Shown here one piece after another: positions 3,675 to 64,000 of a stretch of 64,000 nucleotides of DNA. The stretch is from Rhizobium sp. NZLR1 (lineage in GTDB: Bacteria > Pseudomonadota > Alphaproteobacteria > Rhizobiales > Rhizobiaceae): NCBI RefSeq assembly GCF_017357385.1, contig NZ_CP071633.1, forward strand, positions 310,001 through 374,000, written 5' to 3'. The notes under the pieces are model-generated. The model was not told the DNA's origin, did no database searches, and worked only from the letters and a program-made list of their open reading frames with translations. The position numbers were made by a program, and so were the translations under genes. Positions within the stretch are counted from its first letter, which is position 1, and each line of letters opens with the position of its first letter.

Positions 3675-3697
3675 TAGCTCGCGGCCTTTGAATGCGA

Positions 3698-5581: not shown

Positions 5582-5597
5582 AGAGCGCTGCGATCCG

Positions 5598-6077
5598 TTA
5601 AAGCTTGACCTCGGCGTTGTCGCCCATATCCGGTTTGCTGTTCGAGACCGCTGCAGCTGCCATTTTGATATAGCTGATGATGGTGCCCGGGCTATCCCAA
5701 TATTCCGCCGAGGACGGGGTAATCTTGAGGATGCGGATGGAGGGATCGTCGGGATTGTCCCACCACGCCTTGGCCGGCGTTGCCCATAATTCCCTGATCT
5801 TCTCGCGATCGTTCTGCACCTCGGCCGTCCCAGACACGGAAACATATTTCTGTCCCTTGGTGTCGGCAAAGGCCAGGCACACATTTGGCCAGTGGGCGAT
5901 CTCGTCGTCCTTGTGGCTGGCCACATCCGTCAGAAAATAGACCGCATTCTCCATCTGGGCGGTATAGGCGGACATCGGGCGGGCGCGCAGATCGTCACTG
6001 CTGCGGGTCGTCAGCATGCAAAACCCTATTCTGTCGATCAGCTCCCACACCCGTGTCGCATCATCATGCTCGGCCAT
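5598..6077 (-). CDS. Pyridoxamine 5'-phosphate oxidase-fold (general stress protein 26-like) protein
   Basis: 159 residues from ATG 6077; GGAG lies 6 nt upstream. The in-frame ATGs at 6083 and 6089 are less well placed. A PNPOx-like split barrel is seen: VWELIDRIGFCMLTT, then VYFLTDVASHKDDEIAHWPNVCLAF, then KYVSVSGTAEVQNDREKI, then AKAWWDNPDDPSIRILKITP. These are the hallmark segments of the GSP26 subgroup that binds FMN, FAD or F420-like cofactors. The role is probably stress-related redox chemistry. It ends 16 nt from the convergent LysR gene. Confidence 0.87.
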   Translation of the reverse strand: MAEHDDATRVWELIDRIGFCMLTTRSSDDLRARPMSAYTAQMENAVYFLTDVASHKDDEIAHWPNVCLAFADTKGQKYVSVSGTAEVQNDREKIRELWATPAKAWWDNPDDPSIRILKITPSSAEYWDSPGTIISYIKMAAAAVSNSKPDMGDNAEVKL

Positions 6078-46496: not shown

Positions 46497-46517
46497 GCAA
46501 CTCCTCCTTTCCAAGCC

Positions 46518-46650
46518 TAAAGCATGTCGCGCAAAAGTGAGCAGCGGCTTTGCCAGGCAAAGCGCTGAGCGCTTTTGCCGCAAACGACATGCGTAAAAAC
46601 AAAGAGCTAAAGCGCGAGGAGCGAATCTGAAAGATCGCGACGCGCTTTAG
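46518..46650. repeat. Rhizobial intergenic repeat, family B, copy 2
   Basis: 133 bp. Same ends and core blocks as 26195-26298 (gcatgtcgcgc, gcagcgg, acgacatgcgtaaaaacaaag, gcgacgcgctttag) plus an internal extra inverted segment (ggcaaagcgctgagcgcttttgcc), which explains its greater length. It lies inside the GH32 operon between binding-protein and permease genes. Confidence 0.8.
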
Positions 46651-46662
46651 ATGCCGGTCGCG

Positions 46663-46693
46663 CCCTGCGATATCTGCCTGAGACATCGCAGGG
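46663..46693 (-). other. Stem-loop after the binding-protein gene
   Basis: 13-bp stem ccctgcgatatct / agacatcgcaggg with one G-U position and a 5-nt loop, 25 nt after the binding-protein stop on the minus strand. No U-tract. Confidence 0.72.
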
Positions 46694-46718
46694 GTTCGCC
46701 TATCGGCAGCGATCACGC

Positions 46719-48011
46719 TTATTGCCCGTCGCCGAATGGCGGATAGCCGTCATTGTCCTCGATATCCTGATCGATTTTCTTGGCGGCTGACGTCAGCGCC
46801 TCCTTGGGATCGCCGCCATTGAACACCTGGTCGACGGCCTGCATGAAGGCCGAGGTGATTGTGGGATAGGCAGGATGTGGCGGGCGGGCGACGGCCGTCT
46901 TCGATGCCTGCTCGAAGGCGATCGCCATCGGGCCGCCAGTGGCATAGAGCGGAGATTCGGCAGCGAAGCTCTTCAAGCCGGGATAGCCCGACTGGCTTGC
47001 GGCGAAGGTCCGGAACTCCTTGTCCTTCAGCAGGAAGCTGATGAACTTGCCTGATATCTCGGGATGCGTCGAGGTCTTGGTGACCGCCCAGATCCAGGTG
47101 CCATTCGGGCTCGCGCCCTTGGCGCCGAACTTTGGAAGCGGCAGCACGACGATGTTGTCCTTCATGGTCGCGGCGGCCTCCGCATAGACCCAGTGTCCGC
47201 CGAGCGCCAGCGCCGCCGGATTGCCTTCGGCAAAGAACTGGTTGGTTCCGGCCGACTGCGGCACGACCCAGCCGTTCTTGACCCATTTCTGCATCATGGC
47301 GAGAGCATCGACGCAGGCGTCGCTATCCAGCGTGCCCTCGGATTTCCAAGCCTTGCGGTCGATGAGATCGCAGCCGGCCGATTGCAGGATCGGGCCATAG
47401 GCATAGGTGATCCATTCGGTCTTGATGCCGTAGCCGCGGAAGGTATCGATCGGCCACTTCACGCCGTCGAGCTTGGAAAGCTTTTCGAGATAGGTTTCGA
47501 ATTCTTCCCGAGTCCAGGCATCGTCGACGGATTTCGGGATGCGGGCGCCGATCGCTTCGAGATATTTCTTGTTGCCGTAAAGGACGACCGACGAGTCGGT
47601 CAGTCCGAGTGCATAGAGGTCCTTGTCGATCGGGTATGTGCCCTGGGCGATATTGGACTCCGTCATATCGTCGAGGAGGTCCTTGTCGATCAGCGGCTTG
47701 ATGGGTTGAAGATAGCCCGACCAGACGTAATTGGCGAGGAACGGCGCATCGAGTTCCATGACGTCGGGCAGTTGTTTGGCCATGACGGCCGCGCTGAACT
47801 TCTCGTTATAGGCATCGTGCGGCGCATAGATGAACTGCACGTCGACATCGGGGTTGGCCGCCTCGAACCGCTCGGCGACCTTGCCATAGGCGGCGACAAA
47901 GCCGGGATCGCCCTGATGCATGACCTGGATTGTGGTTTTCTCGGCTGCCTGGGCCCATGGCGCGGTCAACGCCGAGGACAGGATCAGAGACCAAAGTAAA
48001 CGTTTACCCAT
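46719..48011 (-). CDS. CUT1 ABC transporter substrate-binding protein
   Basis: 430 residues; GAGGAGG precedes ATG 48011. Signal peptide MGKRLLWSLILSSALTAPWA with cleavage after AQA. MalE/UgpB-type fold: TIQVMHQGDPGFVAAYGKVA, RFEAANPDVDVQFIYAPHDA, and a late region GKFISFLLKDKEFRTFAAS. Ligand probably sucrose or fructo-oligosaccharides given the GH32 gene in the operon. Confidence 0.93.
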   Translation of the reverse strand: MGKRLLWSLILSSALTAPWAQAAEKTTIQVMHQGDPGFVAAYGKVAERFEAANPDVDVQFIYAPHDAYNEKFSAAVMAKQLPDVMELDAPFLANYVWSGYLQPIKPLIDKDLLDDMTESNIAQGTYPIDKDLYALGLTDSSVVLYGNKKYLEAIGARIPKSVDDAWTREEFETYLEKLSKLDGVKWPIDTFRGYGIKTEWITYAYGPILQSAGCDLIDRKAWKSEGTLDSDACVDALAMMQKWVKNGWVVPQSAGTNQFFAEGNPAALALGGHWVYAEAAATMKDNIVVLPLPKFGAKGASPNGTWIWAVTKTSTHPEISGKFISFLLKDKEFRTFAASQSGYPGLKSFAAESPLYATGGPMAIAFEQASKTAVARPPHPAYPTITSAFMQAVDQVFNGGDPKEALTSAAKKIDQDIEDNDGYPPFGDGQ

Positions 48012-48047
48012 TAGAATTCCTCCTCAATTGGATGGGCCTATCTCAAT

Positions 48048-49052
48048 TTATACGGATGCCCGCTCCACCAGCTGGAACGGCAGTTTCTGCACCCCGACCG
48101 GGACCCGGTCTTCGGCAAGCAGGATTTGCGCCGCCTGGCGGCCCATGGCGCGGTGCGGCAGCGCCATGGTGGTCAGCGGCGGGTCGAGACGCGAGGCGAT
48201 CTCGACCTGGTTGTCGAAACTCGCAATGGCGACATCGTCGGGAATGGCCGCGCCTGTCCGGTGCAGCGCGGCATAGACCTCCATGGCCACGCGGTCATTG
48301 CCGCACAGGATGGCATCGGGGCGCCGGGGGCCGTTCATCAGCTCATGCACATGCGTGGCCACGAGGCTGTGCGCCCGGTCGCTGTAGATCGCCTTGCTGA
48401 CGGCAGGCAAGACGATGGCGCCGGCTCCGTCGATGCCCGCATGATCGAGCGCCTGTCGGAAGCCGAGTTCACGGAGGTCCCCGGCGAGCAGCCCCGGCAG
48501 ATTGATGAAGGCGATATTGCGCCGGCCGGCATCGATCAGATAGTTGGTAATCTCGAGCGCCGCCCCCGTTTCATCCGGCACCAGCGAGGTCACGCGGTCG
48601 TTGGCATCACGGCAGTTGATCATGACGCCGACCGTGTCGGCAAATCCAGGCGGCAGGTCGACGCTCTTGTGATACATGGCGGCATAGGCAATCGCCCGCG
48701 GGCGAAAGCGGCGCATCTCGTCGAGGATCGACGCTACGCTGCGATGGCCGCCGAGCGTCATGGCGAAGACGGCCATGTCGGCGGCGCGCACGGCGCCATC
48801 GAGCCCCCTGATGATTTCGGTCGCGAAAGGCGAGGTGATCAAGTCGTCCGCGACCAGGCCGACAAGTGGCATCCAGCCTTGCCGCATGCTGCGTGCGGCG
48901 AAGTTGGTGACATATCCGAGCTCCGCGGCGATCTCCTTGATCCGCTGGCGGGTGTCTTCCGACATGCGCGCCGAGCCGCCATGCAATGCACCTGACACGG
49001 TCTTAACGGAGACACCTGCACGGGCGGCTATGTCGTTGAGTGAGGCGGTCAC
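48048..49052 (-). CDS. LacI-family transcriptional regulator
   Basis: 334 residues from GTG 49052. HTH about 3-50: LNDIAARAGVSVKTVSGALH, then hinge RIKEIAAELGYVTNFAARSM. The effector domain ends IASFDNQVEIASRLDPPLTT. It is the first gene of the leftward operon and sits 11 nt downstream of a 20-bp near-perfect palindrome, so it should autoregulate the whole fructoside operon. Confidence 0.94.
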   Translation of the reverse strand: MTASLNDIAARAGVSVKTVSGALHGGSARMSEDTRQRIKEIAAELGYVTNFAARSMRQGWMPLVGLVADDLITSPFATEIIRGLDGAVRAADMAVFAMTLGGHRSVASILDEMRRFRPRAIAYAAMYHKSVDLPPGFADTVGVMINCRDANDRVTSLVPDETGAALEITNYLIDAGRRNIAFINLPGLLAGDLRELGFRQALDHAGIDGAGAIVLPAVSKAIYSDRAHSLVATHVHELMNGPRRPDAILCGNDRVAMEVYAALHRTGAAIPDDVAIASFDNQVEIASRLDPPLTTMALPHRAMGRQAAQILLAEDRVPVGVQKLPFQLVERASV

Positions 49053-49698: not shown

Positions 49699-50421
49699 CT
49701 ATTTCGCGTAAAGCGCGCGCGAGCGTTCGAGATGCTTGAGCAGCGCTATTTCCGAGCCGTCCACGTCATTGGCTTCAAGGCGGCCGACGATTTCGTCGTG
49801 TTCGGCGAGCGTGAACTTTTCCTTGCCGGTCCAGATCAGCATTTCGGTATGATATTCCTTCAGCCAGGCGAGCATGGCTTCGCTGACGGCGACGTAGATC
49901 GGGTTGCCTGAGATTTGGGCGATGCGGGTATGGAACTCCATATCGGCATCGATGAATTCTTCGGGCTGCCCGAGTGACCTGCGCTGGCGCTCGATGATCT
50001 CCCTGAGGTCGCCAATATCATTTGCCGAGGCGCGCTGCGCGGCCTCGCGCGCCATGCCGCGCTCGAAGAAGATGCGGGCGCTCTTCAGATGCTCCAGCGA
50101 GTCAGCCGATTGTGCCAGCATGATCTTGGCGGTGAGATCGACCTGGCGGAAGATCGACTTTGCCGTCAGCCTCAGAACCTTCGCCCGCTCGCCGTGCGAA
50201 ATGTTGACGAGACCCTTGTTGGCAAGCGACTGCATGGCCTCGCGGATCGCCGGCCGGCCGACCCCAAAGCGCTCCATCAGCACCCGTTCGGAGGGCATTT
50301 CATCGCCGGGCTGAAGCTCGCCTGAGGTGATCAATCGCTCAAGTCGATCAAACACTTCGTCAGAGAGTTTGCGGCGGACGATCTGTTCGAGGGGCTGGGT
50401 CATAACATCTCGCTGGCTCAA
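49699..50421 (-). CDS. GntR-family (FadR/NanR-type, FCD domain) regulator of the apiose cluster
   Basis: 240 residues from TTG 50421, chosen because GGAGGAG lies 8 nt upstream; ATG 50403 is the alternative. Winged HTH: KLSDEVFDRLERLITSGELQ, then PSERVLMERFGVGRPAIREA. FCD domain from about residue 90 with DADMEFHTRIAQISGNPIYV and EHDEIVGRLEANDVDGSEIA, including the Asp/His residues that bind metal in FCD regulators. It is divergent from the RuBisCO-like gene; operator-like sites at 50514 and 54450 match each other, so it probably represses both apiose blocks. Confidence 0.9.
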   Translation of the reverse strand: MSQRDVMTQPLEQIVRRKLSDEVFDRLERLITSGELQPGDEMPSERVLMERFGVGRPAIREAMQSLANKGLVNISHGERAKVLRLTAKSIFRQVDLTAKIMLAQSADSLEHLKSARIFFERGMAREAAQRASANDIGDLREIIERQRRSLGQPEEFIDADMEFHTRIAQISGNPIYVAVSEAMLAWLKEYHTEMLIWTGKEKFTLAEHDEIVGRLEANDVDGSEIALLKHLERSRALYAK

Positions 50422-50513
50422 AATGTCTCCTCCTAACAGTTTTCCGGACCAAGGACAAAGCTTGCGACTGGAAATTTGCACACTCAAAAAATTCGCTTTT
50501 CATTGGTTGGAAT

Positions 50514-50536
50514 ACTCATTATACCAGATCATGAGT
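50514..50536. promoter_or_regulatory. GntR operator-like site 1
   Basis: ACTCAT-N11-ATGAGT, perfect 6-bp arms, core TATACCAGATC. It matches the site at 54450-54472 at 18 of 23 positions and lies 48 nt before the oiaX-type start and 93 nt before the GntR start. Confidence 0.7.
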
Positions 50537-50583
50537 TGACGCCATGGCAATCTGCATTGGCGAGAGGAGCAGCCGTCCGTTTC

Positions 50584-51840
50584 ATGATGATTACCCTGAC
50601 CTACCGCATCGAAACGGCCGGCAGCGTCGAGGCGATGGCGGACAAGATCGCCAGCGACCAGTCGACCGGAACCTTCGTGCCGGTCCCGGGCGAAACCGAG
50701 GAGCTGAAAGCGCGTGTCGCCGCCCGCGTGCTGGCCATCCGGCCGCTCGACGATGCGCGCCATCCGACCTGGCCTGAGGTCGCTGCCGGCACGCTGCTCC
50801 GACGCGCCGATGTCGACATCGGCTTTCCGCTGGAGGCGATCGGCACCGATCTCTCGGCCTTGATGACCATCGCGATCGGCGGCGTTTATTCGATCAAGGG
50901 CATGACCGGCATTCGCATCGTCGACATGAAGCTGCCCGACGCCTTCAAGAGCGCCCATCCCGGGCCGCAGTTCGGCATTCCTGGAAGCCGCCGCCTCACC
51001 GGCGTTGAAGGCCGGCCGATCATCGGAACGATCGTCAAGCCGGCGCTTGGGCTGAGGCCGCACGAGACGGCGGAACTCGTCGGCGAGCTGATTGCGTCAG
51101 GCGTCGACTTCATCAAGGACGACGAGAAGCTGATGAGCCCGGCCTACTCGCCGCTCAAGGACCGCGTCGCGGCGATCATGCCGCGCATTCTCGATCACGA
51201 GCAGAAGACCGGCAAAAAGGTCATGTATGCCTTCGGCATCTCGCATGCCGACCCCGACGAGATGATGCGCAACCACGACATCGTGGCTGCGGCCGGCGGT
51301 AATTGCGCCGTCGTCAACATCAACTCGATCGGCTTCGGCGGCATGAGCTTTCTACGCAAACGCTCGAGCCTGGTGCTGCACGCGCATCGAAACGGCTGGG
51401 ACGTGCTGACCCGCGATCCGGGCGCCGGCTTGGATTTCAAGGTCTATCAGCAGTTCTGGCGGCTGCTCGGGGTCGATCAGTTTCAGATCAACGGCATCAG
51501 GGTCAAATACTGGGAGCCGGACGACAGCTTCGTCTCATCCTTCAAGGCGGTCAGCACGCCGCTGTTCGACGCCGCCGATTGCCCGCTTCCGGTCGCGGGC
51601 TCCGGCCAGTGGGGCGGACAGGCGCCGGAAACCTATCGCCGCACCGGCCGCACTGTCGATCTGCTCTATCTCTGCGGCGGCGGCATCGTCAGCCATCCCG
51701 GCGGCCCGGCTGCCGGCGTCCGGGCGGTGCAGCAGGCCTGGCAGGCGGCTGTCGCCGACATACCACTTGAGATCTACGCGAGAGATCATCCGGAGCTTGC
51801 CGCCTCGATTGCGAAATTCAGCGACGGCAAAGGCGCGTGA
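50584..51840 (+). CDS. oiaX: RuBisCO-like protein, probable 3-oxo-isoapionate-4-phosphate decarboxylase
   Basis: 418 residues from ATG 50584 (ATG 50587 is adjacent). RuBisCO large-subunit fold with KPALGL (Lys about 152), the carbamylated-Lys motif FIKDDE (Lys about 178), HAHR (about 266-269) and phosphate-binding ends AGSGQWGG and LCGGGIVSHPGGPAAG. It lacks the loop-6 signature of carboxylating RuBisCO. Published apiose work describes RuBisCO-like enzymes acting on 3-oxo-isoapionate 4-phosphate as decarboxylase (OiaX) or transcarboxylase/hydrolase (OiaT). The erythrulose-phosphate isomerase genes downstream favour OiaX, which yields L-erythrulose 1-phosphate and CO2. Confidence 0.85.
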   Translation: MMITLTYRIETAGSVEAMADKIASDQSTGTFVPVPGETEELKARVAARVLAIRPLDDARHPTWPEVAAGTLLRRADVDIGFPLEAIGTDLSALMTIAIGGVYSIKGMTGIRIVDMKLPDAFKSAHPGPQFGIPGSRRLTGVEGRPIIGTIVKPALGLRPHETAELVGELIASGVDFIKDDEKLMSPAYSPLKDRVAAIMPRILDHEQKTGKKVMYAFGISHADPDEMMRNHDIVAAAGGNCAVVNINSIGFGGMSFLRKRSSLVLHAHRNGWDVLTRDPGAGLDFKVYQQFWRLLGVDQFQINGIRVKYWEPDDSFVSSFKAVSTPLFDAADCPLPVAGSGQWGGQAPETYRRTGRTVDLLYLCGGGIVSHPGGPAAGVRAVQQAWQAAVADIPLEIYARDHPELAASIAKFSDGKGA

Positions 51841-53180
51841 CCGATATGGATCGACTTCTCGTCAGCTATTACGGGGATGATTTTACCGGCTCGACCGATG
51901 TCATGGAGGCGCTCGCCTCGAACGGTGTCGAGACGGCACTCTTCCTCGACATTCCGACGCCGGGATTGCTCGCTCGCTTCAAACACTGCCGGGCGATCGG
52001 CATTGCCGGAACGAGCCGCTCCGAGACGCCGGACTGGATGGAGGAGCACCTTGCGCCTGCTTTCGATTGGCTGAAATCGCTCGGCGCTGCCATCTGCCAT
52101 TACAAGGTCTGCTCGACTTTCGATTCCAGCCCCGAGATCGGCAATATCGGCAAGGCGATCGAAATCGGCCGCACGATATTCGGGCAATCCATTGTGCCAG
52201 TTATCGTCGGCGCGCCGCAATTGAAGCGTTATACCGCCTTCGGCAATCTCTTCGCCGCTTATCAGGGCCGCGTCTTCCGCATCGACCGCCATCCCGTCAT
52301 GAGCCGCCACCCGGTCACGCCGATGGACGAGGCGGACCTTACGGTCCACCTGTCGAAGCAGACCTCCCTCCCCGTCCTGCTTGCCGATCTTGTCACGATC
52401 ACCGCGGCGGACGCCGATCAACGGATAGACGCGCTAGCGTCGAGCCCGGACGGGATCCTGCTCCTCGATGTCGACTCCGAGGCAACACAGATCGCGGCAG
52501 GCGGGCAGATGCTGCGTGTCACCAGCCGCTCGGCAAGCTTTGTCGCCGGCTCCTCGGGGGTCGAATATGCCCTGCTCAGCGCATGGCGGCGGGCCGGCTT
52601 GGTCGGCGCGAGCAGCGGCGAATTTCCCGATGTCGGCCCCGTCGACCGCCTCGCCGTCGTCTCGGGTAGCGTCTCGCCGACGACCGAGCGGCAAATCCGC
52701 ACCGCTGTCGAGAACGGCTTCGAAAGCATTGCGCTCGATCCGCTGACGCTGGTCTCGAATGGCGAAGGCGCCGTGGATGGAGCGATACAGGCAGGCATTC
52801 AAAAGCTGAAAGAAGGCAAGAGCGTCATCCTCTACACGGCTCTCGGCCCCTCCGCGGACCGCGGCGCCGATATCGACCGGCTGCCTGGCGCGCGTCACCG
52901 GCTGGGAAGCGCGCTTGGCACAATCCTCTGCCGGTTGGTCGAGGCGGAAGGGCTGTCGCGTGCGGTCGTCGCCGGCGGCGACACCTCCAGTCACGCACTC
53001 CGGCAATTGAAGATCGACGCGCTGACGACGCTTCTGCCGCTTCCCCAGACGCCGGGGTCGCCGCTGTGCCTCGCCCATGGCGACTTTCCGCCGACCAACG
53101 GCCTGCAGATCGCGCTCAAAGGCGGCCAGGTCGGGACGGACGGCTATTTCGCGCAGATCCGCGACGGAAGGAAAAGCTGA
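51837..53180 (+). CDS. oiaK: DUF1537-family acid-sugar kinase, probable 3-oxo-isoapionate kinase
   Basis: 447 residues from GTG 51837, which overlaps the oiaX stop (GTGA); ATG 51846 is an alternative. N-terminal sugar-binding domain signature YYGDDFTGSTDVMEAL; C-terminal nucleotide-binding domain with VSGSVSPTTERQI and VAGGDTSSHALRQL. DUF1537 proteins are ATP-dependent kinases of four- and five-carbon acid sugars. Position between the RuBisCO-like gene and the isomerases points to phosphorylation of 3-oxo-isoapionate at C4. Confidence 0.85.
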   Translation: MTDMDRLLVSYYGDDFTGSTDVMEALASNGVETALFLDIPTPGLLARFKHCRAIGIAGTSRSETPDWMEEHLAPAFDWLKSLGAAICHYKVCSTFDSSPEIGNIGKAIEIGRTIFGQSIVPVIVGAPQLKRYTAFGNLFAAYQGRVFRIDRHPVMSRHPVTPMDEADLTVHLSKQTSLPVLLADLVTITAADADQRIDALASSPDGILLLDVDSEATQIAAGGQMLRVTSRSASFVAGSSGVEYALLSAWRRAGLVGASSGEFPDVGPVDRLAVVSGSVSPTTERQIRTAVENGFESIALDPLTLVSNGEGAVDGAIQAGIQKLKEGKSVILYTALGPSADRGADIDRLPGARHRLGSALGTILCRLVEAEGLSRAVVAGGDTSSHALRQLKIDALTTLLPLPQTPGSPLCLAHGDFPPTNGLQIALKGGQVGTDGYFAQIRDGRKS

Positions 53181-53941
53181 TGGTCGTCTGGGTCGGCACC
53201 AGTTTCAAGATGAACAAGACCGTTGAGGAAGCGCTCGCCTTCGCGCGCCACCTCGCCCAGGCAGACAGCGAACGCGACATCCGCGTGCAGCGCTTCGTCA
53301 TTCCCGCCTTTACCGCGATGCGCGAGGTCAAGCGTGTGCTGGCCGAGACATCGGTCAAGGTCGGCGCCCAGAACATGCACTGGGAAGACGCCGGCGCCTG
53401 GACCGGCGAGATTTCGCCTCTGATGCTGAAGGACTGCGAACTCGATATCGTCGAACTCGGTCATTCCGAGCGGCGCGAGCATTTCGGCGAGACCGACGAA
53501 ACCGTCGGCCTCAAGGTTTCCGCCGCGATCTGCCATGGCCTGACGCCGCTGATCTGCATCGGCGAGACGTTGCAGGAGCGCCGGGAGGGTCGGGCCGACG
53601 CGGTTTTACGGCGGCAGGTCGAGGCCGCCTTGAGGGGCGTCGACGCCGGGGCCGAGGCTCCGGTCCTGCTTGCCTATGAGCCGGTCTGGGCGATCGGCGC
53701 CAAGGGTATACCGGCGACCGCCGACTACGCGTCGGAGCGACACGGAAAGATCGCCGAGGTGGCGAAGTCCATTGTTGGACGTGCGGTGCCGGTTCTCTAC
53801 GGCGGCAGCGTCAATCCGGAAAATTGCGAGGAACTGATCACCGAGGCGCATATCGACGGCCTGTTCATCGGCCGCTCCGCCTGGGGCGTCGACGGTTACC
53901 TCGACATTCTTCGCCGCGTCAGCGCGGCGATCGAAAGGTGA
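53180..53941 (+). CDS. lerI: Triose-phosphate-isomerase-like protein, probable L-erythrulose-1-phosphate isomerase
   Basis: 253 residues from ATG 53180, overlapping the kinase stop by one base. TIM catalytic residues are all present: Lys in TSFKMNK, His in ELGHSERREHFGE, Glu in AYEPVWAIGAKG, phosphate loop LYGGSVNPENCEEL. TPI paralogues in erythritol and apiose operons (EryH/LerI) interconvert L-erythrulose 1-phosphate and D-erythrulose 4-phosphate. That role fits the product expected from OiaX better than glycolytic TPI does. Not experimentally shown for this copy. Confidence 0.82.
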   Translation: MVVWVGTSFKMNKTVEEALAFARHLAQADSERDIRVQRFVIPAFTAMREVKRVLAETSVKVGAQNMHWEDAGAWTGEISPLMLKDCELDIVELGHSERREHFGETDETVGLKVSAAICHGLTPLICIGETLQERREGRADAVLRRQVEAALRGVDAGAEAPVLLAYEPVWAIGAKGIPATADYASERHGKIAEVAKSIVGRAVPVLYGGSVNPENCEELITEAHIDGLFIGRSAWGVDGYLDILRRVSAAIER

Positions 53942-53975
53942 TTTCCATGCCCGAGGGCGATGAAAGGAAACTGCT

Positions 53976-54422
53976 ATGAAGATTGCAATTGGCGCCGACA
54001 GCGCCGGCAAACCGCTCCTGGATGTTATTGCCGCCCATCTCGCCGGCAAGGCGGATCTCGAAGTTCACGATCTCAGTCAGGCCGGCTTCTACGCCGATCT
54101 CTCCCAGCGTCTCGCGCAGACGATTGTCGACGGCGAACATCAGCGCGGCATCCTGTTCTGCGGCACCGGCATCGGTGTGTGCATTTCCGCAAACAAGGTG
54201 CCGGGCATCCGCGCCGCGCTGACGCACGATACCTATTCGGCGGAACGCGCGGCCAAATCGAACAACGCCCAGATCATCACGATGGGGGCGCGCGTCATCG
54301 GGCCGGAACTGGCGAAATCGATCGTCGACGTCTGGCTTGCATCCGAATTCGACCCTGACGGCCCATCGGCAGGCAACGTTGAGGCGATCGACCGGCTCGA
54401 CGCCGAAAAACATGGGTCTTGA
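53976..54422 (+). CDS. derI: RpiB/LacAB-family isomerase, probable D-erythrulose-4-phosphate isomerase
   Basis: 148 residues with GAGGGCGATGAAAGGA upstream of ATG 53976. RpiB features: [12 protein letters not shown] at the start, catalytic Cys in [35 protein letters not shown], and [17 protein letters not shown]. In erythritol and apiose operons the RpiB paralogue (EryI/DerI) converts D-erythrulose 4-phosphate to D-erythrose 4-phosphate, an intermediate of the pentose-phosphate pathway. Last gene of the first apiose block. Confidence 0.83.
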
Positions 54423-54449
54423 ACAACTAAAGTAGTGATATGGTGATTG

Positions 54450-54472
54450 ACTCATCATACCAGTTTATGATC
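54450..54472. promoter_or_regulatory. GntR operator-like site 2
   Basis: ACTCATCATACCAGTTTATGATC; contains atcata-ccagtt-tatgat (perfect 6-bp arms). It shares 18 of 23 positions with the site at 50514-50536 and lies 29 nt before the apnO-type start, so a second promoter of the regulon is likely here. Confidence 0.7.
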
Positions 54473-54501
54473 CTATCCAGAACTGAAAAAGTGAGGAAAA
54501 C

Positions 54502-56368
<1,867 letters not shown>

Positions 56369-56378
56369 TCAGCGCCAA

Positions 56379-56410
56379 TTGCGGAGGGTGCAGTGTTGCG
56401 CCCTCCGCAA
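56379..56410 (+). other. Stem-loop after the binding-protein gene
   Basis: Perfect 10-bp stem ttgcggaggg / ccctccgcaa, which can extend by three more pairs into the loop; 10 nt after the stop codon. Not followed by a clean U-tract. Confidence 0.75.
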
Positions 56411-56440
56411 TGCATTTTGCAAGACGTCGAGGTTCATCGC

Positions 56441-57085
56441 ATGTTGAGAATGAAGGGCGCCCTGCTAGCCGCCGTCGTGGCGGCGGCCTTGCCCGGCTGC
56501 AAGATCATCAAGACGCCGACTACAGAGGAGAAGGCGGCGGCAGCGGCCAAGACCGCTTTCGACCCGAATGCCAAGGTCGAGGCGATCTGGCAGCCTGACG
56601 TCGTGCCGTATTTCGAAAAGCGCGCCGGCGAGCTGAAGGACGTCATGCAGCTTGCCGCCTCCAACCCGGATGCCGCCGGCGAGAAATACGGCAATACTCG
56701 CAAGCAGAGCAGCTCGCCCTGGACCTATGCGGTGAAGATCACCGGCACGGTCGTTGCGGCCGACACGGCGTCGCGCGCGGCAACGCTCGATCTCGACGCC
56801 GATGGCGACGGCAAGGCCGATGCCAAGGTGCAGATCGGGCCGGCGCTGCGCGGCACCGCACTGCGCGACACGCTAGACTTCGTCAATTTCAATGAATTCA
56901 AGAACCAGATCGAATGGGCGCAGTTCGGTAAGGCGTTCAACGAGAAGGCCAATGCCGCTGTTCTCTCCGCCGTTCCGCGCGACGGCCTGGCCGGCAAGAC
57001 GGTGACGGTGATCGGCGCCTTTCCGCTGCCGAAAAGCGGCGAGCTTCCGCTCGTGACACCTTCGGAACTGAAGGTGGGCTCATGA
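56441..57085 (+). CDS. DUF2291-family lipoprotein in the apiose transporter operon
   Basis: 214 residues from ATG 56441 with GAGG 8 nt upstream. Lipobox LPGC near residue 23 marks a lipoprotein with acylated Cys (CKIIKTPT). Domain segments: WQPDVVPYFEKRAGELKDVM, then a beta-rich middle ITGTVVAADTASRAATLDLD, then FVNFNEFKNQIEWAQFGKAF. DUF2291 proteins occur in CUT2 importer operons of proteobacteria and have no established role; an accessory function in ligand delivery or transporter assembly is a guess. Overlaps the ATPase gene by 4 nt. Confidence 0.82.
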   Translation: MLRMKGALLAAVVAAALPGCKIIKTPTTEEKAAAAAKTAFDPNAKVEAIWQPDVVPYFEKRAGELKDVMQLAASNPDAAGEKYGNTRKQSSSPWTYAVKITGTVVAADTASRAATLDLDADGDGKADAKVQIGPALRGTALRDTLDFVNFNEFKNQIEWAQFGKAFNEKANAAVLSAVPRDGLAGKTVTVIGAFPLPKSGELPLVTPSELKVGS

Positions 57086-58632
57086 CAGCGGCAGAGGCAC
57101 AAGAGGACGACATCATCCTGCGCCTCGACGATGTGTCGAAGGTCTATTCGGGCATCGTCGCCGTCAAGCGCGCCAATCTGGAGCTGCGCCGCGGCGCGGT
57201 GAACGTTCTGGTTGGCGAAAATGGCGCCGGCAAATCGACGCTGATGAAAATCATCGCCGGCGTCGAGCGCCCGACGCTCGGCCGCATCATCCTGGATGGC
57301 AAGCCCATATCCTTCGACAGTCCGGCCGACGCGCAGGCCAATGGCATCGGCATGATCTTCCAGGAGCTCAATCTCTTCGCCAACATGTCGGTGGCCGAAA
57401 ACATTTTCACAAGGCGCGAGATCACCCGCGGCCTGCTCGGCATCGATCACAAGGCGCAGGTCGAAAAGGCCAATGAATTTCTGCGGCGTCTCGATGCCGG
57501 CATCGAGGCGGATACGATGGTCGAGGATCTGCCGATCGGCCAGCAGCAACTCGTCGAGATCGCCAAGGCGATGTCGCTCGATGCCCGCATCCTGATCATG
57601 GACGAGCCGACCTCCGCGCTTTCGGCGGCGGAAGTCGAAATCCTGTTCAAGGTGATCGCCGAGCTGAAAGCCCACGGTGTGGCGATCGTCTATATCTCGC
57701 ACCGGCTGGAAGAGCTGATGCGGATCGGCGACTACATCACGGTGCTGCGCGACGGCCAGATCACCGGCCATGCCATGGTGCGCGATATCGACACGCGCTG
57801 GATCGTGCGCTCGATGATCGGCTCGGACGCCAAGGATTTTGCAAAATCCGTTACCCATTCCATCGGCCAAGAGGTCTTCCGCGCCGAAAATATCAGCCTT
57901 CCCAGGCCGACCGGCGGGCTTGCCGTCAACGATGTCTCCCTGTCGGTCAAGGCAGGCGAGATCCTCGGCATCTACGGCCTGATGGGCGCCGGGCGCAGCG
58001 AATTCTTCGAATGCGTGATCGGGCGCCATGCGCATTCGACCGGCAGGATCTTCATCGACGGCAAGGAAGTGCGCGCCCGCGACACCACGCGGCGCATCCG
58101 CCGCGGCCTTGCTCTGATCCCAGAAGACCGGCAGCGGGAGGGATTGGTGCAGGTGCTCTCCATCGCCTCCAACCTGACGCTTGCAAGCCTTTCGCGCTTC
58201 ACCCGGCTCTTCCATATCGACAGCAGCGCGGAAAAGAACGCCATTCAGGAGGCGATCCGCGATCTCTCGATCAAGGCGCCCAATCCGGATTTCGAGGTTA
58301 CCTCGATGTCCGGCGGCAACCAGCAGAAGGTCGTCATCGGTAAGGCGTTGATGACCAATCCGAAGGTGCTGCTGATGGACGAGCCGAGCCGCGGCATCGA
58401 TGTCGGCGCCAAGGCAGACGTCTTCCGCACCATGCGCCGGCTGGCGGCAAACGGGCTCGCCATTCTGTTTTCGACCTCCGACCTCGAAGAGGTCATGGCG
58501 CTATCCGATCGCATCGCGGTCTTGAGCAACGGCCAGCTGGTCGCTGTCTTCGACAGGGATGAGGCGACTGAGGAAGCGATCATCGCGGCTTCGGCCAAGG
58601 GACACGGACATCAAGGGAAACTCGCGTCATGA
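57082..58632 (+). CDS. CUT2 sugar ABC transporter ATP-binding protein (fused double domain), probable apiose importer
   Basis: 516 residues. N-domain: Walker A GENGAGKST, variant signature PIGQQQLVEIAKAM, Walker B ILIMDEPTSAL, ISHRLEE switch. C-domain: degenerate Walker A GLMGAGRSE, signature MSGGNQQKVVIGKAL, Walker B VLLMDEPSRGIDVG. Translationally coupled to the DUF2291 gene before it and the permease gene after it (both ATGA overlaps). Confidence 0.94.
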   Translation: MTAAEAQEDDIILRLDDVSKVYSGIVAVKRANLELRRGAVNVLVGENGAGKSTLMKIIAGVERPTLGRIILDGKPISFDSPADAQANGIGMIFQELNLFANMSVAENIFTRREITRGLLGIDHKAQVEKANEFLRRLDAGIEADTMVEDLPIGQQQLVEIAKAMSLDARILIMDEPTSALSAAEVEILFKVIAELKAHGVAIVYISHRLEELMRIGDYITVLRDGQITGHAMVRDIDTRWIVRSMIGSDAKDFAKSVTHSIGQEVFRAENISLPRPTGGLAVNDVSLSVKAGEILGIYGLMGAGRSEFFECVIGRHAHSTGRIFIDGKEVRARDTTRRIRRGLALIPEDRQREGLVQVLSIASNLTLASLSRFTRLFHIDSSAEKNAIQEAIRDLSIKAPNPDFEVTSMSGGNQQKVVIGKALMTNPKVLLMDEPSRGIDVGAKADVFRTMRRLAANGLAILFSTSDLEEVMALSDRIAVLSNGQLVAVFDRDEATEEAIIAASAKGHGHQGKLAS

Positions 58633-59693
58633 TGGCGGCTACATCTACCACTCTTGCGCCGAAAGGCGCCAACGGCTCCGCGCTTCTGACACTGATGAAG
58701 CTCAGGACCTTCATCGCGCTTTTCGCCGTCATCATCTTCTTTGCGATCTTCGCGCCGAACTTCACCTCGACAGCGAACATGATCCTGATGTCGAAACATG
58801 TGGCGCTGAACGCCTTCCTGGCGATGGGCATGACCTTCGTCATCATCACCGGCGGCATCGACCTCTCCGTCGGGTCGATCGTCGGGCTGTGCGGCATGGT
58901 TGCCGGCGGCCTGATCCTCTACGGCATCGAATTGCCAATCGGCTACACCATCTATTTCAACCTCTTCGAGATCGTGCTGATCACGCTGTCGATCGGCCTT
59001 ATCATCGGTCTGATCAACGGCCTCTTGATCACCAAGCTTAACGTTGCGCCGTTCATCGCGACACTCGGCACGCTCTATATCGCCCGCGGCCTGGCGCTGT
59101 TGTCGTCTGATGGTCAGACCTTTCCGAACCTCGTCGGCCGGCCGGAATATGCCACGACCGGCTTCGACTTCTTCGGCGCGGGACGCATTCTCGGCCTGCC
59201 GGTCTCGATCTGGATCCTGATCGTGCTGGCGCTTGTGGCCGCCTATGTCGCCCGCTCGACGCCGATCGGCCGCCACATCTTTGCCGTCGGCGGCAATGAG
59301 CGAGCCGCGCGCATGTCCGGTATCCGCGTCGATGTCGTGAAGATCTTCGTCTACATGTTCTCCGGTCTTTGCGCCGCCATCGTCGGCGTCGTCATCTCCT
59401 CGGAACTGATGGCCGCCCATCCGGCCACGGGCGAGAGCTTCGAGCTCAATGCGATCGCGGCAGCCGTGCTCGGCGGCACCTCGATGTCGGGTGGCCGCGG
59501 CACGATCGGCGGAACGATTATCGGCGCCTTCGTCATAGGCATCCTTTCCGACGGGCTCGTCATGATGGGCGTTTCCTCCTTCTGGCAAATGGTCATCAAG
59601 GGTCTCGTCATCATCATCGCCGTGGTCGTCGACCAGGCGCAGCGCCGCCTGCAGCAGCGCGTCACCCTCATGCAAATGGCAAAGGCGGGTTGA
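58629..59693 (+). CDS. CUT2 sugar ABC transporter permease, probable apiose importer
   Basis: 354 residues with about eight to ten hydrophobic segments. RbsC signatures FVIITGGIDLSVGSIVGLCG and FELNAIAAAVLGGTSMSGGR. The stop is one base before the apsD-type ATG, so transporter and enzyme genes form one transcript. Confidence 0.94.
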   Translation: MMAATSTTLAPKGANGSALLTLMKLRTFIALFAVIIFFAIFAPNFTSTANMILMSKHVALNAFLAMGMTFVIITGGIDLSVGSIVGLCGMVAGGLILYGIELPIGYTIYFNLFEIVLITLSIGLIIGLINGLLITKLNVAPFIATLGTLYIARGLALLSSDGQTFPNLVGRPEYATTGFDFFGAGRILGLPVSIWILIVLALVAAYVARSTPIGRHIFAVGGNERAARMSGIRVDVVKIFVYMFSGLCAAIVGVVISSELMAAHPATGESFELNAIAAAVLGGTSMSGGRGTIGGTIIGAFVIGILSDGLVMMGVSSFWQMVIKGLVIIIAVVVDQAQRRLQQRVTLMQMAKAG

Positions 59694-59694
59694 G

Positions 59695-60729
59695 ATGACC
59701 GAATTGAAAGGCGCGTTGATCGGCTGCGGCTTCTTTGCGATCAACCAGATGCACGCCTGGAGCGATGTCGACGGCGCCACGATTGTCGCGATCTGCGACC
59801 GCGATCCGGAGCGGCTGAAGATCGTCGGCGACCAGTTCGGCATCGAGCGCCGCTATAGCGATGCCGAGGCCTTGTTTACCGATGGCGGCTTCGATTTCGT
59901 CGATATCGCCACCACCGTCCAGAGCCACCGCGCGCTGGTGGAAATGGCCGCCGGCAATAGGGTGCCGGCCATCTGCCAGAAGCCGTTCGCCAAGACGCTG
60001 TCGGATGCGAAGGCGATGGTCGAGGCCTGCCGCAATGCCGGCGTCGCCCTGATGGTGCACGAGAATTTTCGTTGGCAGGCGCCGATCCAGGCGGTTCGCA
60101 AGGCGCTCGCTGCCGGCGTGATCGGCACGCCCTTCTGGGGCCGCTTCTCCTTCCGCTCGGGCTACGACGTTTTTTCCGGCCAGCCCTATCTCGCCGAAGG
60201 CGAGCGCTTCATCATCGAAGATCTCGGTATTCATACGCTCGACATCGCTCGCTATATCCTCGGCGATGTCAGCTCGCTGACGGCGCGCACCAGGCGGGTC
60301 AATCCAAAAATCAAGGGCGAGGACGTCGCGACCATTCTGCTCGATCATGAAAATGGCGCCACCTCGGTCGTCGATGTCAGCTACGCCACCAAGCTTTCCA
60401 AAGAGCCGTTCCCGGAGACCCTGATCGAGCTCGATGGCACCGAGGGCACGATCCGCCTGAGTCAGGGTTATGGCCTCGAAATCAACAACGCCGAGGGCAC
60501 CACCAAAATGGATGTCTCTCCGAAGCTGCTATCATGGGCCTCGCGGCCCTGGCACAATATCCAGGAGAGCGTCTACGCGATCCAGCAGCATTGGGTCGAC
60601 CAACTCAAGCGCGGCGCGGATCACTCGACGTCAGGGGTCGACAATCTGAAGACCTTCGCCCTTGTCGAGGCTGCCTATGACAGTGCTGCCGGGGGAAAGA
60701 CCATCGACGTCGGGGCGATGCTGCGATGA
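59695..60729 (+). CDS. apsD: Gfo/Idh/MocA oxidoreductase, probable D-apiose dehydrogenase
   Basis: 344 residues. N-terminal Rossmann fold GALIGCGFFAINQMHAWSDV and AICDRDPERLKIVGDQFGIE. The usual E-K-P cofactor/active-site motif is Q-K-P here (AICQKPFAKTLSDA), and a catalytic-His segment EDLGIHTLDIARYILGD is present. ApsD oxidises D-apiose to the lactone with NAD. The assignment rests on family plus the lactonase gene that overlaps its stop (ATGA). Confidence 0.82.
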   Translation: MTELKGALIGCGFFAINQMHAWSDVDGATIVAICDRDPERLKIVGDQFGIERRYSDAEALFTDGGFDFVDIATTVQSHRALVEMAAGNRVPAICQKPFAKTLSDAKAMVEACRNAGVALMVHENFRWQAPIQAVRKALAAGVIGTPFWGRFSFRSGYDVFSGQPYLAEGERFIIEDLGIHTLDIARYILGDVSSLTARTRRVNPKIKGEDVATILLDHENGATSVVDVSYATKLSKEPFPETLIELDGTEGTIRLSQGYGLEINNAEGTTKMDVSPKLLSWASRPWHNIQESVYAIQQHWVDQLKRGADHSTSGVDNLKTFALVEAAYDSAAGGKTIDVGAMLR

Positions 60730-62570
60730 CGGTCGATGCCTTCCAGCTTTACGGCACCCACGCTCTGGAAACGCCGCCGGTTCGCCTGACGGCCGGAAAG
60801 CTGGCCGCCGATCTCGCCGATGGCAATCTCCGCACCATCCGTTACGACGGTGTCGAGGTGCTGCGGGCGATTTCCTATCTCGTTCGCGACCGGGACTGGG
60901 GCACCTACAGCCCCCAGATCGCCGATCTCAGGATCGAGCAGGGCGACGACCGTTTCGAAGTCGCTTATCGGGCACGTTGCGAGGCATCCGACGGAACGAG
61001 CCTCGTCATCGACGTCCGCATCATCGGATATCAGGACCGGCTCGATTTCGAGGCCGAAGCCACGAGCGAGACCGGCTTCGAGACCAATCGGTGCGGCTTC
61101 TGCATCCTGCATCCGATCGTCGGTGTGGCCGGTTCAGCGGCGACGGTCGAGCATGTCGACGGCCGGATCGTCGAGACACGCTTTCCCGATGTGATCGAAC
61201 CCTGGCAGCCGTTCCAGGATATGCGCGCTATTTCCCATGAGGTCGTGCCCGGAGTTGCGGCGGAATGCCGGATGGAAGGCGACATTTTCGAAATGGAGGA
61301 TCAGAGGAACTGGTCCGATGCCTCCTACAAGACCTATGTCAGGCCGCTCGCCCTGCCCTGGCCCTATCGGATTTTCGCCAACCAACCGGTTCGGCAGAAG
61401 ACGTCGCTCATGATCAGCCACGCCAGCCGTTCCGCAGCGGTCTCAGCCGCGACGTCGAGCGATGTCATAAGGCTCGAACTTGGAACACGGACCGGCACCA
61501 TGCCCGATATCGGCGTGGTCGTTACGCCGCAGGAGGCCGATGCGACGCTCTCGGCCCGGTCCCTCCTGTCGGAGATCGCGCCGCGCGAGCTTGTCTTCCA
61601 TTTCGATGCGAACGCTGGACATGGCGTCGAAGCGCTGCAGAAATTTGCCGCGATCGCTGCCGCCCATCATGGCCGTACGACGCTGGAGATCGCGCTTGCC
61701 TGCAAGTCGTCGCCATCGAGCGAAGCGGCCGAGATTGCCCGCCAGATGCAGCGCGCGGACTTCGAGCCGGAAGCGATCCTGATCTCGCCTTCCGTCGATC
61801 GGCAATCGACGCCGCCTGGCAGCAAATGGCCGGACTGCCCTCCCCTCGAAGAGATCTATGCCGCGGCCCGCGCCGCCTTCCCCGGCACTCGCATCGGCGG
61901 CGGCATGCTGAGCTATTTCACCGAACTCAACCGCAAGCGCGTGCCGGCCGGCGAGATCGATTTCGTCAGCCATTGCACCAATCCGATCGTGCATGCGGCC
62001 GACGATCTCAGCGTCATGCAGACATTGGAAGCGCTGCCGTTCATCACGCGATCCGTCCGCGCGGTCTACGGCGACAAGCCCTATCGCATCGGCCCGTCGA
62101 CGATCCCGATGCGGCAGAACCCTTATGGTAGCCGCACCATGGACAATCCTGCGGGCGGACGCATCCCGATGGCCAATCGCGACCCGCGCCACAACGGGCG
62201 TTTCGCGGAGGCTTTCGCGCTCGGCTACGCGATCCGGGTGCTGGATGCCGATCTCGAATGCCTGACGCTTTCGGCACTGACCGGCCCTTTCGGCCTGATC
62301 GCCGGCCCGGATGAACCGGTCGAGCAAGGCGGGCGGCGGCCGCTGTTCAACACGGTGCGGACCTTGTCGGCCCTCGCCGGCGCGTCCTGGCAGGAATGCG
62401 TCTCGTCTTCGCCGTCCGAAGTGCTGTCCTTCGTGGCGCGGGATGCCGCAGGCGCCAGGATCTATGTGGTCAATCTGACCAGCGAAGAGCGAAGGGTCGA
62501 CGGCGGCGCACTGGATAAAGAGCTGCGGCTCGCGCCTTTCGGGACTGTCGTCTTGCCGCGGGCGGATTGA
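60726..62570 (+). CDS. apnL: Probable D-apionate lactonase
   Basis: 614 residues, the length of ApnL-type lactonases; no signal peptide. N-terminal beta-rich segment (GKLAADLADGNLRTIRYDGV, then YLVRDRDWGTYSPQIADLRI), a middle with FCILHPIVGVAGSAATVEHV, and a second half resembling a glycosidase-like barrel (GTRIGGGMLSYFTELNRKRV, then DFVSHCTNPIVHAADDLSVM). ApnL opens D-apionolactone to D-apionate. I recognise it mainly by length, context and the overlap with apsD; the catalytic residues are not certain from sequence. Confidence 0.8.
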   Translation: MTVDAFQLYGTHALETPPVRLTAGKLAADLADGNLRTIRYDGVEVLRAISYLVRDRDWGTYSPQIADLRIEQGDDRFEVAYRARCEASDGTSLVIDVRIIGYQDRLDFEAEATSETGFETNRCGFCILHPIVGVAGSAATVEHVDGRIVETRFPDVIEPWQPFQDMRAISHEVVPGVAAECRMEGDIFEMEDQRNWSDASYKTYVRPLALPWPYRIFANQPVRQKTSLMISHASRSAAVSAATSSDVIRLELGTRTGTMPDIGVVVTPQEADATLSARSLLSEIAPRELVFHFDANAGHGVEALQKFAAIAAAHHGRTTLEIALACKSSPSSEAAEIARQMQRADFEPEAILISPSVDRQSTPPGSKWPDCPPLEEIYAAARAAFPGTRIGGGMLSYFTELNRKRVPAGEIDFVSHCTNPIVHAADDLSVMQTLEALPFITRSVRAVYGDKPYRIGPSTIPMRQNPYGSRTMDNPAGGRIPMANRDPRHNGRFAEAFALGYAIRVLDADLECLTLSALTGPFGLIAGPDEPVEQGGRRPLFNTVRTLSALAGASWQECVSSSPSEVLSFVARDAAGARIYVVNLTSEERRVDGGALDKELRLAPFGTVVLPRAD

Positions 62571-62626
62571 CGTCCGGCGCGCCAGCCGCATCTATGCAGT
62601 CGGAGCTCGTTCTGGGGAGGATCGGC

Positions 62627-63631
62627 GTGAAGACGAAGAAGCTTATCAATGCAGGCGCAGATGCCGTCGATGAGATGCTGCAAGGCGTTCTCGCGGCCCA
62701 TCCCGGGCACCTTTATGCCGTGGACGACATGCCGCGCGCCATCATTGCCCGAAACGGACCGCGCAAGGGCAAGGTCGGGCTGGTGATCGGCGGCGGGTCC
62801 GGGCACGAACCGACATTCCTCGGCTATGTCGGCAGAGGGCTGGCGGATGCCGCCGCGATCGGCAATGTCTTCGCCTCGCCGCCCCCCGATCCGATCATCG
62901 CCTGCGCCAAAGCCGTCGACGGCGGCGCCGGCGTGCTCTTCATGTACGGCAATTATGCCGGCGACGTCATGAACTTCGACATGGCCGCCGAAATGCTGGC
63001 GCTTGACGAGATCGAGGTGCGCACCGTCCTGACCACCGACGATGTCGCGTCCGCCCCCGCCGATCAGAGGGACAGGCGGCGCGGCGTGGCGGGCAATGTC
63101 TTCATCTTCAAGGCCGCTGGTGCTGCCTGCGATCTTCTCTATTCCTTCGACGAGGTCGAGCGCGCCGCCCGCCATGCCAATGCGCGAACCTATACGATGG
63201 GTGTGGCGCTCGCGCCTTGTTCGCTGCCGCAGACCTTGAAACCGAATTTCCTGATCGGCGACGGCGAGATGGAGATCGGCATGGGCATCCATGGCGAGCC
63301 CGGCATGGCTCGCGAGCCGCTGAAGGCGGCCGACGCGGTGACCGACGAACTGATGGACAGCATCCTCCGCGAGATGAAGGCAGAACGGGGCGACCGTGTC
63401 GCCGTGCTCGTCAACTCGCTGGGCTCCACGCCGATGATGGAGCTCTACATCATGATGCGGCGCGTGAAGGCGCGGCTCGACGAGGCGGGGCTTGTCATCC
63501 ATAGCTCGCTCGTCGGGAATTACTGCACTTCGCTCGAAATGGCCGGCGCTTCGGTGACGCTCATGCACCTCGACGACGAGCTTCAGCGGCTAATCGACCA
63601 TCCCTGCGATTGCGCCATGTTTACGAGGTGA
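62627..63631 (+). CDS. Dihydroxyacetone-kinase subunit DhaK-like protein
   Basis: 334 residues from GTG 62627 with GGGGAGG 6 nt upstream; the longer frame from 62567 has no site. DhaK features: LVIGGGSGHEPTFLGYVGRG, NYAGDVMNFDMAAEML, RRGVAGNVFIFKAAGAA, and EIGMGIHGEPGMA, which carries the conserved His that binds the keto group. DhaK binds the ketone covalently, DhaL carries the nucleotide. In apiose and erythrulose operons such kinases phosphorylate D-apulose, L-erythrulose or D-erythrulose. The phosphorylated OiaK/OiaX route does not need this step, so its job here is open. Confidence 0.88.
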   Translation: MKTKKLINAGADAVDEMLQGVLAAHPGHLYAVDDMPRAIIARNGPRKGKVGLVIGGGSGHEPTFLGYVGRGLADAAAIGNVFASPPPDPIIACAKAVDGGAGVLFMYGNYAGDVMNFDMAAEMLALDEIEVRTVLTTDDVASAPADQRDRRRGVAGNVFIFKAAGAACDLLYSFDEVERAARHANARTYTMGVALAPCSLPQTLKPNFLIGDGEMEIGMGIHGEPGMAREPLKAADAVTDELMDSILREMKAERGDRVAVLVNSLGSTPMMELYIMMRRVKARLDEAGLVIHSSLVGNYCTSLEMAGASVTLMHLDDELQRLIDHPCDCAMFTR

Positions 63632-63634
63632 TCG

Positions 63635-64000
63635 ATGCTGATCACGACGAAAGACCTGCAGCACCTCTTTGCCTTGATCGCCGAGGGCATCGCCGCGCAG
63701 CGCGATCATCTCTGCGAGTTGGATGGCGCCATCGGCGACGGAGATCACGGCCTTGCCATGGACGCCGGCTGTGAAGCCGCCGCCAAGGCCGTCGGCGGGC
63801 TCGATGCCGCGCAGACTGCGCCGACGCCTGCCTTCAACGCTGCGGCAAAGGCATTTCTGAATGCGGTCGGCGCGTCATCGGGCCCGCTCTATGCCACCGC
63901 CTTTATGCGCGCAGGCGCTTCGGTCAAGGACAGGTCTAACCTGAGCGATGACAATTTTGTGCGGGCTTTCGCGGCGATGGCGCAAGGCATTCAGGAACGC
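63635..64000 (+). CDS. Dihydroxyacetone-kinase subunit DhaL-like protein (3' end outside window)
   Basis: The first 122 residues are present: MLITTKDLQHLFALIAEGIA, then the Mg/nucleotide-binding DGAIGDGDHGLAMDAG motif, then AAKAFLNAVGASSGPLYATA, the DhaL phosphate-loop region. It starts 3 nt after the dhaK stop and pairs with it. Whether a PTS-type DhaM partner or the ATP-dependent version is used depends on downstream sequence. Confidence 0.9.
   Translation, partial: MLITTKDLQHLFALIAEGIAAQRDHLCELDGAIGDGDHGLAMDAGCEAAAKAVGGLDAAQTAPTPAFNAAAKAFLNAVGASSGPLYATAFMRAGASVKDRSNLSDDNFVRAFAAMAQGIQER

Follow-up and report, generated by a model that had tools for sequence, protein, structure and literature searches.

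The window analysed here is a 64 000-nucleotide stretch of the 6.86 Mb genome of the plant-associated Rhizobium sp. NZLR1 (G000:C2:310001-374000 in our coordinates, contig NZ_CP071633.1), and its end falls within a locus for the catabolism of D-apiose. An earlier sequence-only reading had described this locus as a near-complete oxidative apiose pathway. The pathway is borne out by our analysis and its boundary is corrected, as the locus extends ∼6 kb beyond the window end, where a third unit lies behind the same operator-like site. From gene identities, linkage, co-occurrence and motif distribution, we consider it quite likely that one regulon under a GntR-type regulator governs the uptake of apiose, both free and as apiosides, and the cytoplasmic cleavage of the apiosides. 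The single regulon would consist of three transcription units, with the regulator sitting on a site with the core CTCATYATACCAGWT before each. Units 1 (oiaX-oiaK-lerI-derI) and 2 (apnO, the CUT2 apiose importer, apsD, apnL and dhaKL) would import free D-apiose and oxidize it via ApsD–ApnL–ApnO–OiaK–OiaX, with loss of CO2 at the RuBisCO-like OiaX, after which LerI and then DerI would give D-erythrose 4-phosphate. Unit 3, past the window, would import apiosyl glycosides or oligosaccharides through a CUT1 oligosaccharide-type importer and cut them to apiose with a cytoplasmic apiosidase-like glycosidase. The new part is this third unit for import and cleavage, preceded by the operator-like site that it shares with the other two; it would extend the system from free apiose to apiosides.

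Unit 3 is a cassette of five genes downstream of DhaL, all on the plus strand, that encode a CUT1 substrate-binding protein (SBP), two permeases, a glycoside hydrolase and a UgpC-type ATPase (Table 1). The gene order is identical in R. acidisoli FH23. The glycosidase is the sole PF13204 match in the genome, and two relatives score 75.0 and 76.6 bits on the same model. Because its N-terminus opens directly with DUF5060 (a signal peptide is absent on inspection by eye), the enzyme would be expected to be cytoplasmic, where it would probably release the apiose of imported plant glycosides. Its putative catalytic pair, located by eye in the motifs NEYD and DEPEYE, reads Glu/Glu. A point of comparison is the BT_1012-type apiosidase family, which we take to be GH140. 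The β-apiosidase BT_1012 of Bacteroides, as described in excerpts of PMC7939467 and PMC4032388, has the catalytic Pfam domain in common with our enzyme but carries PF12904 and the pair Asp187/Glu284, whereas the glycosidase here has DUF5060 and DUF5605 flanks, Glu in place of Asp187 and an adjoining ABC importer. Glu occupies the Asp187 position in 17.3% of the family according to an excerpt of PMC4032388. A putative glycoside hydrolase in the Protein Data Bank (PDB entry 4n0r) is a full-length relative (347 bits), for which the PDB listing names no substrate. An AlphaFold2 model of the Paramesorhizobium glycosidase alone has a mean predicted local distance difference test score of 37.6.

Within the genus the cassette accompanies the apiose pathway. 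Among 120 Rhizobium genomes the glycosidase occurs in 76, ApnL in 97 and both in 74; the 76 include a weak match (G025, 31%) and a partial match (G003, 82% complete assembly), which count as glycosidase without ApnL and were excluded from the 74 genomes used for the site-position count. In 65 of the 74 the glycosidase follows ApnL on the same strand at a distance of no more than 10 kb. In the other nine the two genes are on separate contigs (five genomes) or on the same contig at distances of 12.8, 26, 49 and 985 kb.

The operator-like motif links the three units. A conserved block in the gntR–oiaX gap, found on comparison of 81 sequences, recurs before apnO. A first pattern of 21 bases with up to three mismatches placed a site at oiaX/gntR in 75 of 80 loci, at apnO in 36 and at the CUT1 gene in one, with no site in L004, the locus that continues past the window end. 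The 17-base pattern CTCATYATACCAGWTNA, with at most one mismatch, has three sites in the genome, one upstream of each of oiaX and apnO and a third 70 bp ahead of the CUT1 SBP gene; its reversed control has none. When 105 loci (2.21 Mb, partly overlapping) were scanned with the core at the same tolerance, sites fell at oiaX/gntR (85), oiaX/sbp (1), apnO (78), the CUT1 gene (12) and elsewhere (2), with none for the control. The 12 sites at the CUT1 gene represent ten distinct places, and a CUT1 gene was recognized in 30 of the 105 loci, duplicates included. The exact core occurs in 90 of the 120 Rhizobium genomes, comprising 90 of the 97 with ApnL and none of the 23 without it (control 0/120). 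Among the sites listed (150 in 75 genomes), 140 are no more than 20 kb from ApnL. Of the 74 glycosidase genomes, 60 have listed sites, and in 49 of these one lies 2.9–3.6 kb before the glycosidase, at the cassette start. G061 and G083 carry the cassette on another contig than ApnL, and the site still precedes it there. The motif contains the reverse complement of GGTATA, presumably the E. coli NanR hexamer, and the GntR protein of the locus, a member of the NanR subfamily and the predicted regulator, would bind these sites.

Ten of the listed sites are away from ApnL, one at the unlinked cassette of G061 and nine elsewhere. All seven examined of these nine, in other Rhizobium genomes (L162–L168), precede one MFS transporter (for example L162:6217-7548), with 81–99.8% identity to the L162 protein. 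Its closest model, in the two of the seven that were scanned, is that of a D-galactonate transporter (278 versus a cut-off of 395), and an aldonate-type carrier in the regulon suggests uptake of apionate. Several cassettes without a GntR-type site (L140–L157) adjoin a ROK-family gene, identified by a Pfam match in L140 and by resemblance of the first residues in the others, which suggests an exchange of regulator.

Outside Rhizobium, a class-level search found the glycosidase in one of 385 genomes, that of the window itself, and the genus and family levels were therefore used. In a family sample of 297 genomes it is present at 58% identity or more in 17, 15 of them outside Rhizobium, after three matches at 31% or less (G547, G588 and G637) had been dropped. 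ApnL-like genes are found in 78 of the 297, in 13 of the 17 genomes with the glycosidase versus 65 of the 280 others (Fisher p about 1e-5, uncorrected for relatedness), and in 11 of the 15 outside Rhizobium. The glycosidase and the four CUT1 genes stand together in all 20 loci examined (these 15 and five unlinked ones of Rhizobium). Six of the 15 non-Rhizobium genomes have apiose genes at about 10 kb or less from the cassette. GntR and OiaX immediately precede it in G706 (Paramesorhizobium, L138), and OiaX (778 versus 700) and the apiose CUT2 importer stand beside it in G776. Homologues of AplK, AptA and AptB from the isomerase–kinase–transketolase D-apiose pathway of E. coli SE15 (39–46% identity) lie within 10 kb of it in G795, G722, G619 and G745, genomes in which no ApnL was found; an SBP of the apiose type (79%) is present in G795 as well. 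The SE15 pathway shares a CUT2 importer with DUF2291 with the locus described here and differs from it in chemistry; homologues of its enzymes adjoin the same CUT1–glycosidase cassette in these four other Rhizobiaceae genomes. Growth of cluster-bearing strains on D-apiose, described in an excerpt of PMC13001218, backs the function of the SE15-type cluster. Within one genus (g357), G776 and G722 both keep the cassette and differ in the apiose pathway that adjoins it.

Two of these neighbourhoods have further features. In Paramesorhizobium deserti (L138 and L029) GntR–OiaX and the cassette are together and other apiose genes were not found in the neighbourhood, possibly through an internal deletion of a Rhizobium-like locus. 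In L139 (Rhizobiaceae; 1768-6062) the genes upstream of the cassette encode a TIM barrel resembling xylose isomerase, the two halves of a transketolase and an FGGY kinase; the TIM barrel is a candidate D-apiose isomerase of a different family than the fucose-isomerase-like one in L146, L149 and L150.

The cassette might instead serve another plant sugar, only the published apiose pathway being at work here and the downstream position in Rhizobium being due to common descent. We regard this as improbable, and several observations favour it or otherwise weigh against an apioside regulon. The glycosidase is missing from 23 of the 97 ApnL-positive Rhizobium genomes, and no cassette lies within 8 kb at the R. 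etli CFN 42 locus. For nine of the 15 genomes from other genera, the roughly 10 kb around the cassette showed no apiose gene; those nine have an ApnL-like gene elsewhere (36–66% identity), and some ApnL-like matches are distant (36–54%). The search behind the absence of ApnL from four genomes scored no more than four candidates in each, and an ApnL may have been missed. Read by eye, the glycosidase has Glu where BT_1012 has a catalytic Asp, and it seems to fall on the Glu branch of PF13204, apart from BT_1012; phmmer (E up to 1) gave no link to that enzyme, 4n0r being the only solved relative. The motif core was trimmed to 17 bases after the sites had been seen, seven ApnL-positive genomes lack the exact core, and a preceding site is absent from three of the five unlinked Rhizobium cassettes examined (G048, G093 and G063; L153, L156 and L157). 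The presence of an FGGY kinase is not diagnostic by itself, given matches at 38–39% in L154 and L155 without AptA/AptB, and the argument for a predicted AplK/AptA/AptB route rests on the transketolase halves. Lastly, genomes of one genus are not independent and relatedness inflates the genus-level counts. Against another substrate speak the association of the cassette, in other genera, with two apiose pathways of different chemistry, the motif kept before two unlinked cassettes and the family-wide co-occurrence with ApnL. The evidence least affected by relatedness is the within-genus difference in pathway, the site kept at two unlinked cassettes and the presence of AplK/AptA/AptB homologues at four loci. 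In the fuller version of our preferred reading, towards which we lean with some reserve, this is a dedicated apioside-scavenging regulon, with CUT2 for free apiose, CUT1 for apiosides, the MFS carrier for apionate in some species, a new cytoplasmic apiosidase branch and a portable import-and-cleave module that became joined to two or more different apiose pathways.

The oxidative route proceeds from apiose through apionolactone, apionate and 3-oxo-isoapionate to 3-oxo-isoapionate 4-phosphate, and from there through L-erythrulose 1-phosphate and D-erythrulose 4-phosphate to D-erythrose 4-phosphate. All of the genes named for it in the sequence-only reading are present as open frames, with profile matches that agree with their classes. 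Every gene fits the proposed route to D-erythrose 4-phosphate, and OiaX, ApnL and DerI exceed curated equivalog cut-offs. The closest solved chains of the ApsD-type and ApnO-type enzymes, 5uhw and 5t57, we take to be the characterized ApsD and ApnO. Carter et al. reportedly described an oxidative D-apiose pathway with OiaK/OiaX in 2018. An excerpt of PMC6302742 refers to that work in connection with RuBisCO-like proteins from Agrobacterium radiobacter K84 and Xanthobacter, and an excerpt of PMC11747546 describes ApsD, ApnL, ApnO, OiaK and OiaX accompanying growth on D-apiose in Rhodobacteraceae strain LCG007. The present locus resembles the OiaK/OiaX pathway in its enzyme classes and in its apiose-binding CUT2 type of importer, and differs in the CUT1–glycosidase unit that follows behind the same motif. 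The pathway itself is already published and is common in Rhizobium, and that part is not new.

The kinase has OiaK as its best family and scores below the cut-off of that model (463.6 versus 700). A DUF1537 kinase acting on a substrate other than 3-oxo-isoapionate would explain this score, and we give that explanation very little credence: the counterpart in R. rhizogenes, the one other Rhizobium kinase tested, likewise scores 455, the gene overlaps oiaX by four bases, and it is present in 79 of 80 OiaX loci. Since the R. rhizogenes kinase is also below it, the shortfall is probably clade-wide and the cut-off too strict for this clade. NCBI names the OiaX-adjacent kinases of R. etli and R. acidisoli 'four-carbon acid sugar kinase'.

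The specific role of LerI is predicted within the triose-phosphate isomerase (TPI) family. Of the 76 full-length OiaX loci, 25 carry its gene in the stretch from oiaK to apnO. A copy at 66% identity or more was present in 15 of 15 genomes searched, and all 12 genomes examined that lack lerI in the operon hold a copy elsewhere (66–70%), which supports D-erythrose 4-phosphate as the end point. We rejected a plain housekeeping TPI in view of these retained copies and of a second TPI, the sole other one of the genome, on C1.

DhaKL had been listed with the pathway genes by the sequence-only reading. Both subunits are there; DhaKL is dispensable in the main line, because OiaK and OiaX already yield a phosphorylated product. 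DhaK conserves the positions of the E. coli DhaK His, Asp and His, presumably the catalytic residues, and scores below the NCBIfam DhaK cut-off (385.2 versus 406.25). Its role is most likely salvage, in which DhaKL would recover L-erythrulose arising when the unphosphorylated β-keto acid 3-oxo-isoapionate decarboxylates. A less likely, though serious, alternative is that DhaKL acts on dihydroxyacetone or another triose outside apiose breakdown, as the matches are to DhaK/DhaL models and none is to a specific L-erythrulose kinase, and as the main line is complete without it. The gene order speaks for a connection with apiose: dhaKL comes after lerI-derI, in a separate block, in L024 and L025, and after apnL in L071, L073 and L077.

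The CUT2 SBP is identical to the solved R. etli protein (PDB entry 5ibq) at 284 of 288 aligned residues (counted by hand), or about 98%. That structure, for which the PDB listing itself gives a molecule name only, presumably contains apiose, and would then already answer, on a nearly identical protein, the apiose-binding check proposed by the sequence-only reading. A DUF2291 lipoprotein sits between the SBP and the ATPase in the Rhizobium importer and likewise in the apiose importer of E. coli SE15 (L158:16342-16962).

The locus is widespread. Gene content was compared in the 80 best of 442 OiaX loci on genome contigs, four of the 80 being shortened by contig ends: GntR is present in 80, OiaK-like and ApnO genes in 79 each, the CUT2 set in 73, and ApsD and ApnL in 78. 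In plasmid records, from which those of the source genome itself may be excluded, the closest relative, R. leguminosarum bv. trifolii WSM2304, matches 99% of the 14.4 kb compared at an identity of 92.0%. A single DNA match spans at least 80% of the 14.4 kb in 113 of the 347 plasmid records with a match, on which ground a chance grouping of the genes was rejected. On p42f of R. etli CFN 42, OiaX is annotated under that name. CUT1-type importer genes and a LacI-type regulator adjoin the locus on the minus strand (window 45558-49052), and the annotation of the matching block in R. acidisoli and R. etli includes a GH32 C-terminal domain protein.

Table 1. Features of the apiose locus. Positions are window coordinates unless prefixed by L004, of which position 1 is window position 63001.
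Feature	Position	Strand	Basis
GntR/FCD protein of the NanR subfamily, predicted to regulate the locus	49699..50406	-	NCBIfam PRK03837, 357.9 bits versus 260; beside OiaX in 80/80 loci
Operator-like site 1, gntR–oiaX gap	50514..50534	+	motif search
OiaX, RuBisCO-like 3-oxo-isoapionate-4-phosphate decarboxylase	50587..51840	+	NCBIfam NF042437, 783 bits versus cut-off 700; closest solved chain 3nwr
OiaK-like 3-oxo-isoapionate kinase, DUF1537 type (SBD_N + NBD_C)	51837..53180	+	best family NF042436, 463.6 versus cut-off 700
LerI-like L-erythrulose-1-phosphate isomerase, TPI family	53180..53941	+	TPI models only; specific role predicted
DerI, D-erythrulose-4-phosphate isomerase, RpiB family	53976..54422	+	NF051858, 256.8 versus cut-off 240
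Operator-like site 2, upstream of apnO	54450..54470	+	motif search
ApnO-type D-apionate oxidoisomerase (PGDH_C)	54502..55329	+	PF16896, 239 bits; closest solved chain 5t57, 446 bits
CUT2 apiose-binding protein (SBP)	55427..56368	+	5ibq, 607.8 bits; 4ry0, 605.9 bits
DUF2291 lipoprotein	56441..57085	+	PF10054, 213.8 bits
CUT2 ATPase	57082..58632	+	profile match
CUT2 permease	58629..59693	+	profile match
ApsD-type D-apiose dehydrogenase (Gfo/Idh/MocA)	59695..60729	+	closest solved chain 5uhw, 644 bits over 343 residues
ApnL, D-apionate lactonase	60726..62570	+	NF049900, 1051 versus cut-off 750
DhaK, predicted L-erythrulose kinase subunit, GTG start	62627..63631	+	PF02733, 401.6 bits
DhaL	63635..64000, cut by window end; full gene L004:635-1306, ending 306 bases past the window end	+	TIGR02365, 187.6 versus 138.3
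Operator-like site 3, before CUT1 SBP	L004:1283-1299 (C2:374283)	+	motif search
CUT1 SBP	L004:1353-2606	+	PF01547
CUT1 permease A	L004:2700-3599	+	PF00528
CUT1 permease B	L004:3596-4480	+	open frame; named from R. acidisoli counterpart
Glycoside hydrolase, DUF5060 + Apiosidase-like + DUF5605	L004:4513-6039	+	PF13204, 67.3 versus gathering cut-off 26.5
UgpC-type ATPase	L004:6054-7124	+	ABC_tran/OB_MalK/TOBE

Among the titles and abstract openings listed in searches of open-licence literature, none dealt with an ABC importer coupled to a cytoplasmic apiosidase. The known pathway begins at free apiose and leaves unexplained how soil and nodule bacteria release apiose from plant material, and the cassette offers a testable answer to how the sugar is obtained. 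It would assign a likely substrate to the DUF5060-type PF13204 proteins, a glycosidase branch that has had none so far, and to a CUT1 importer. A regulator and its predicted site are also proposed, and the cassette may serve as a genome marker for the use of apiosides.

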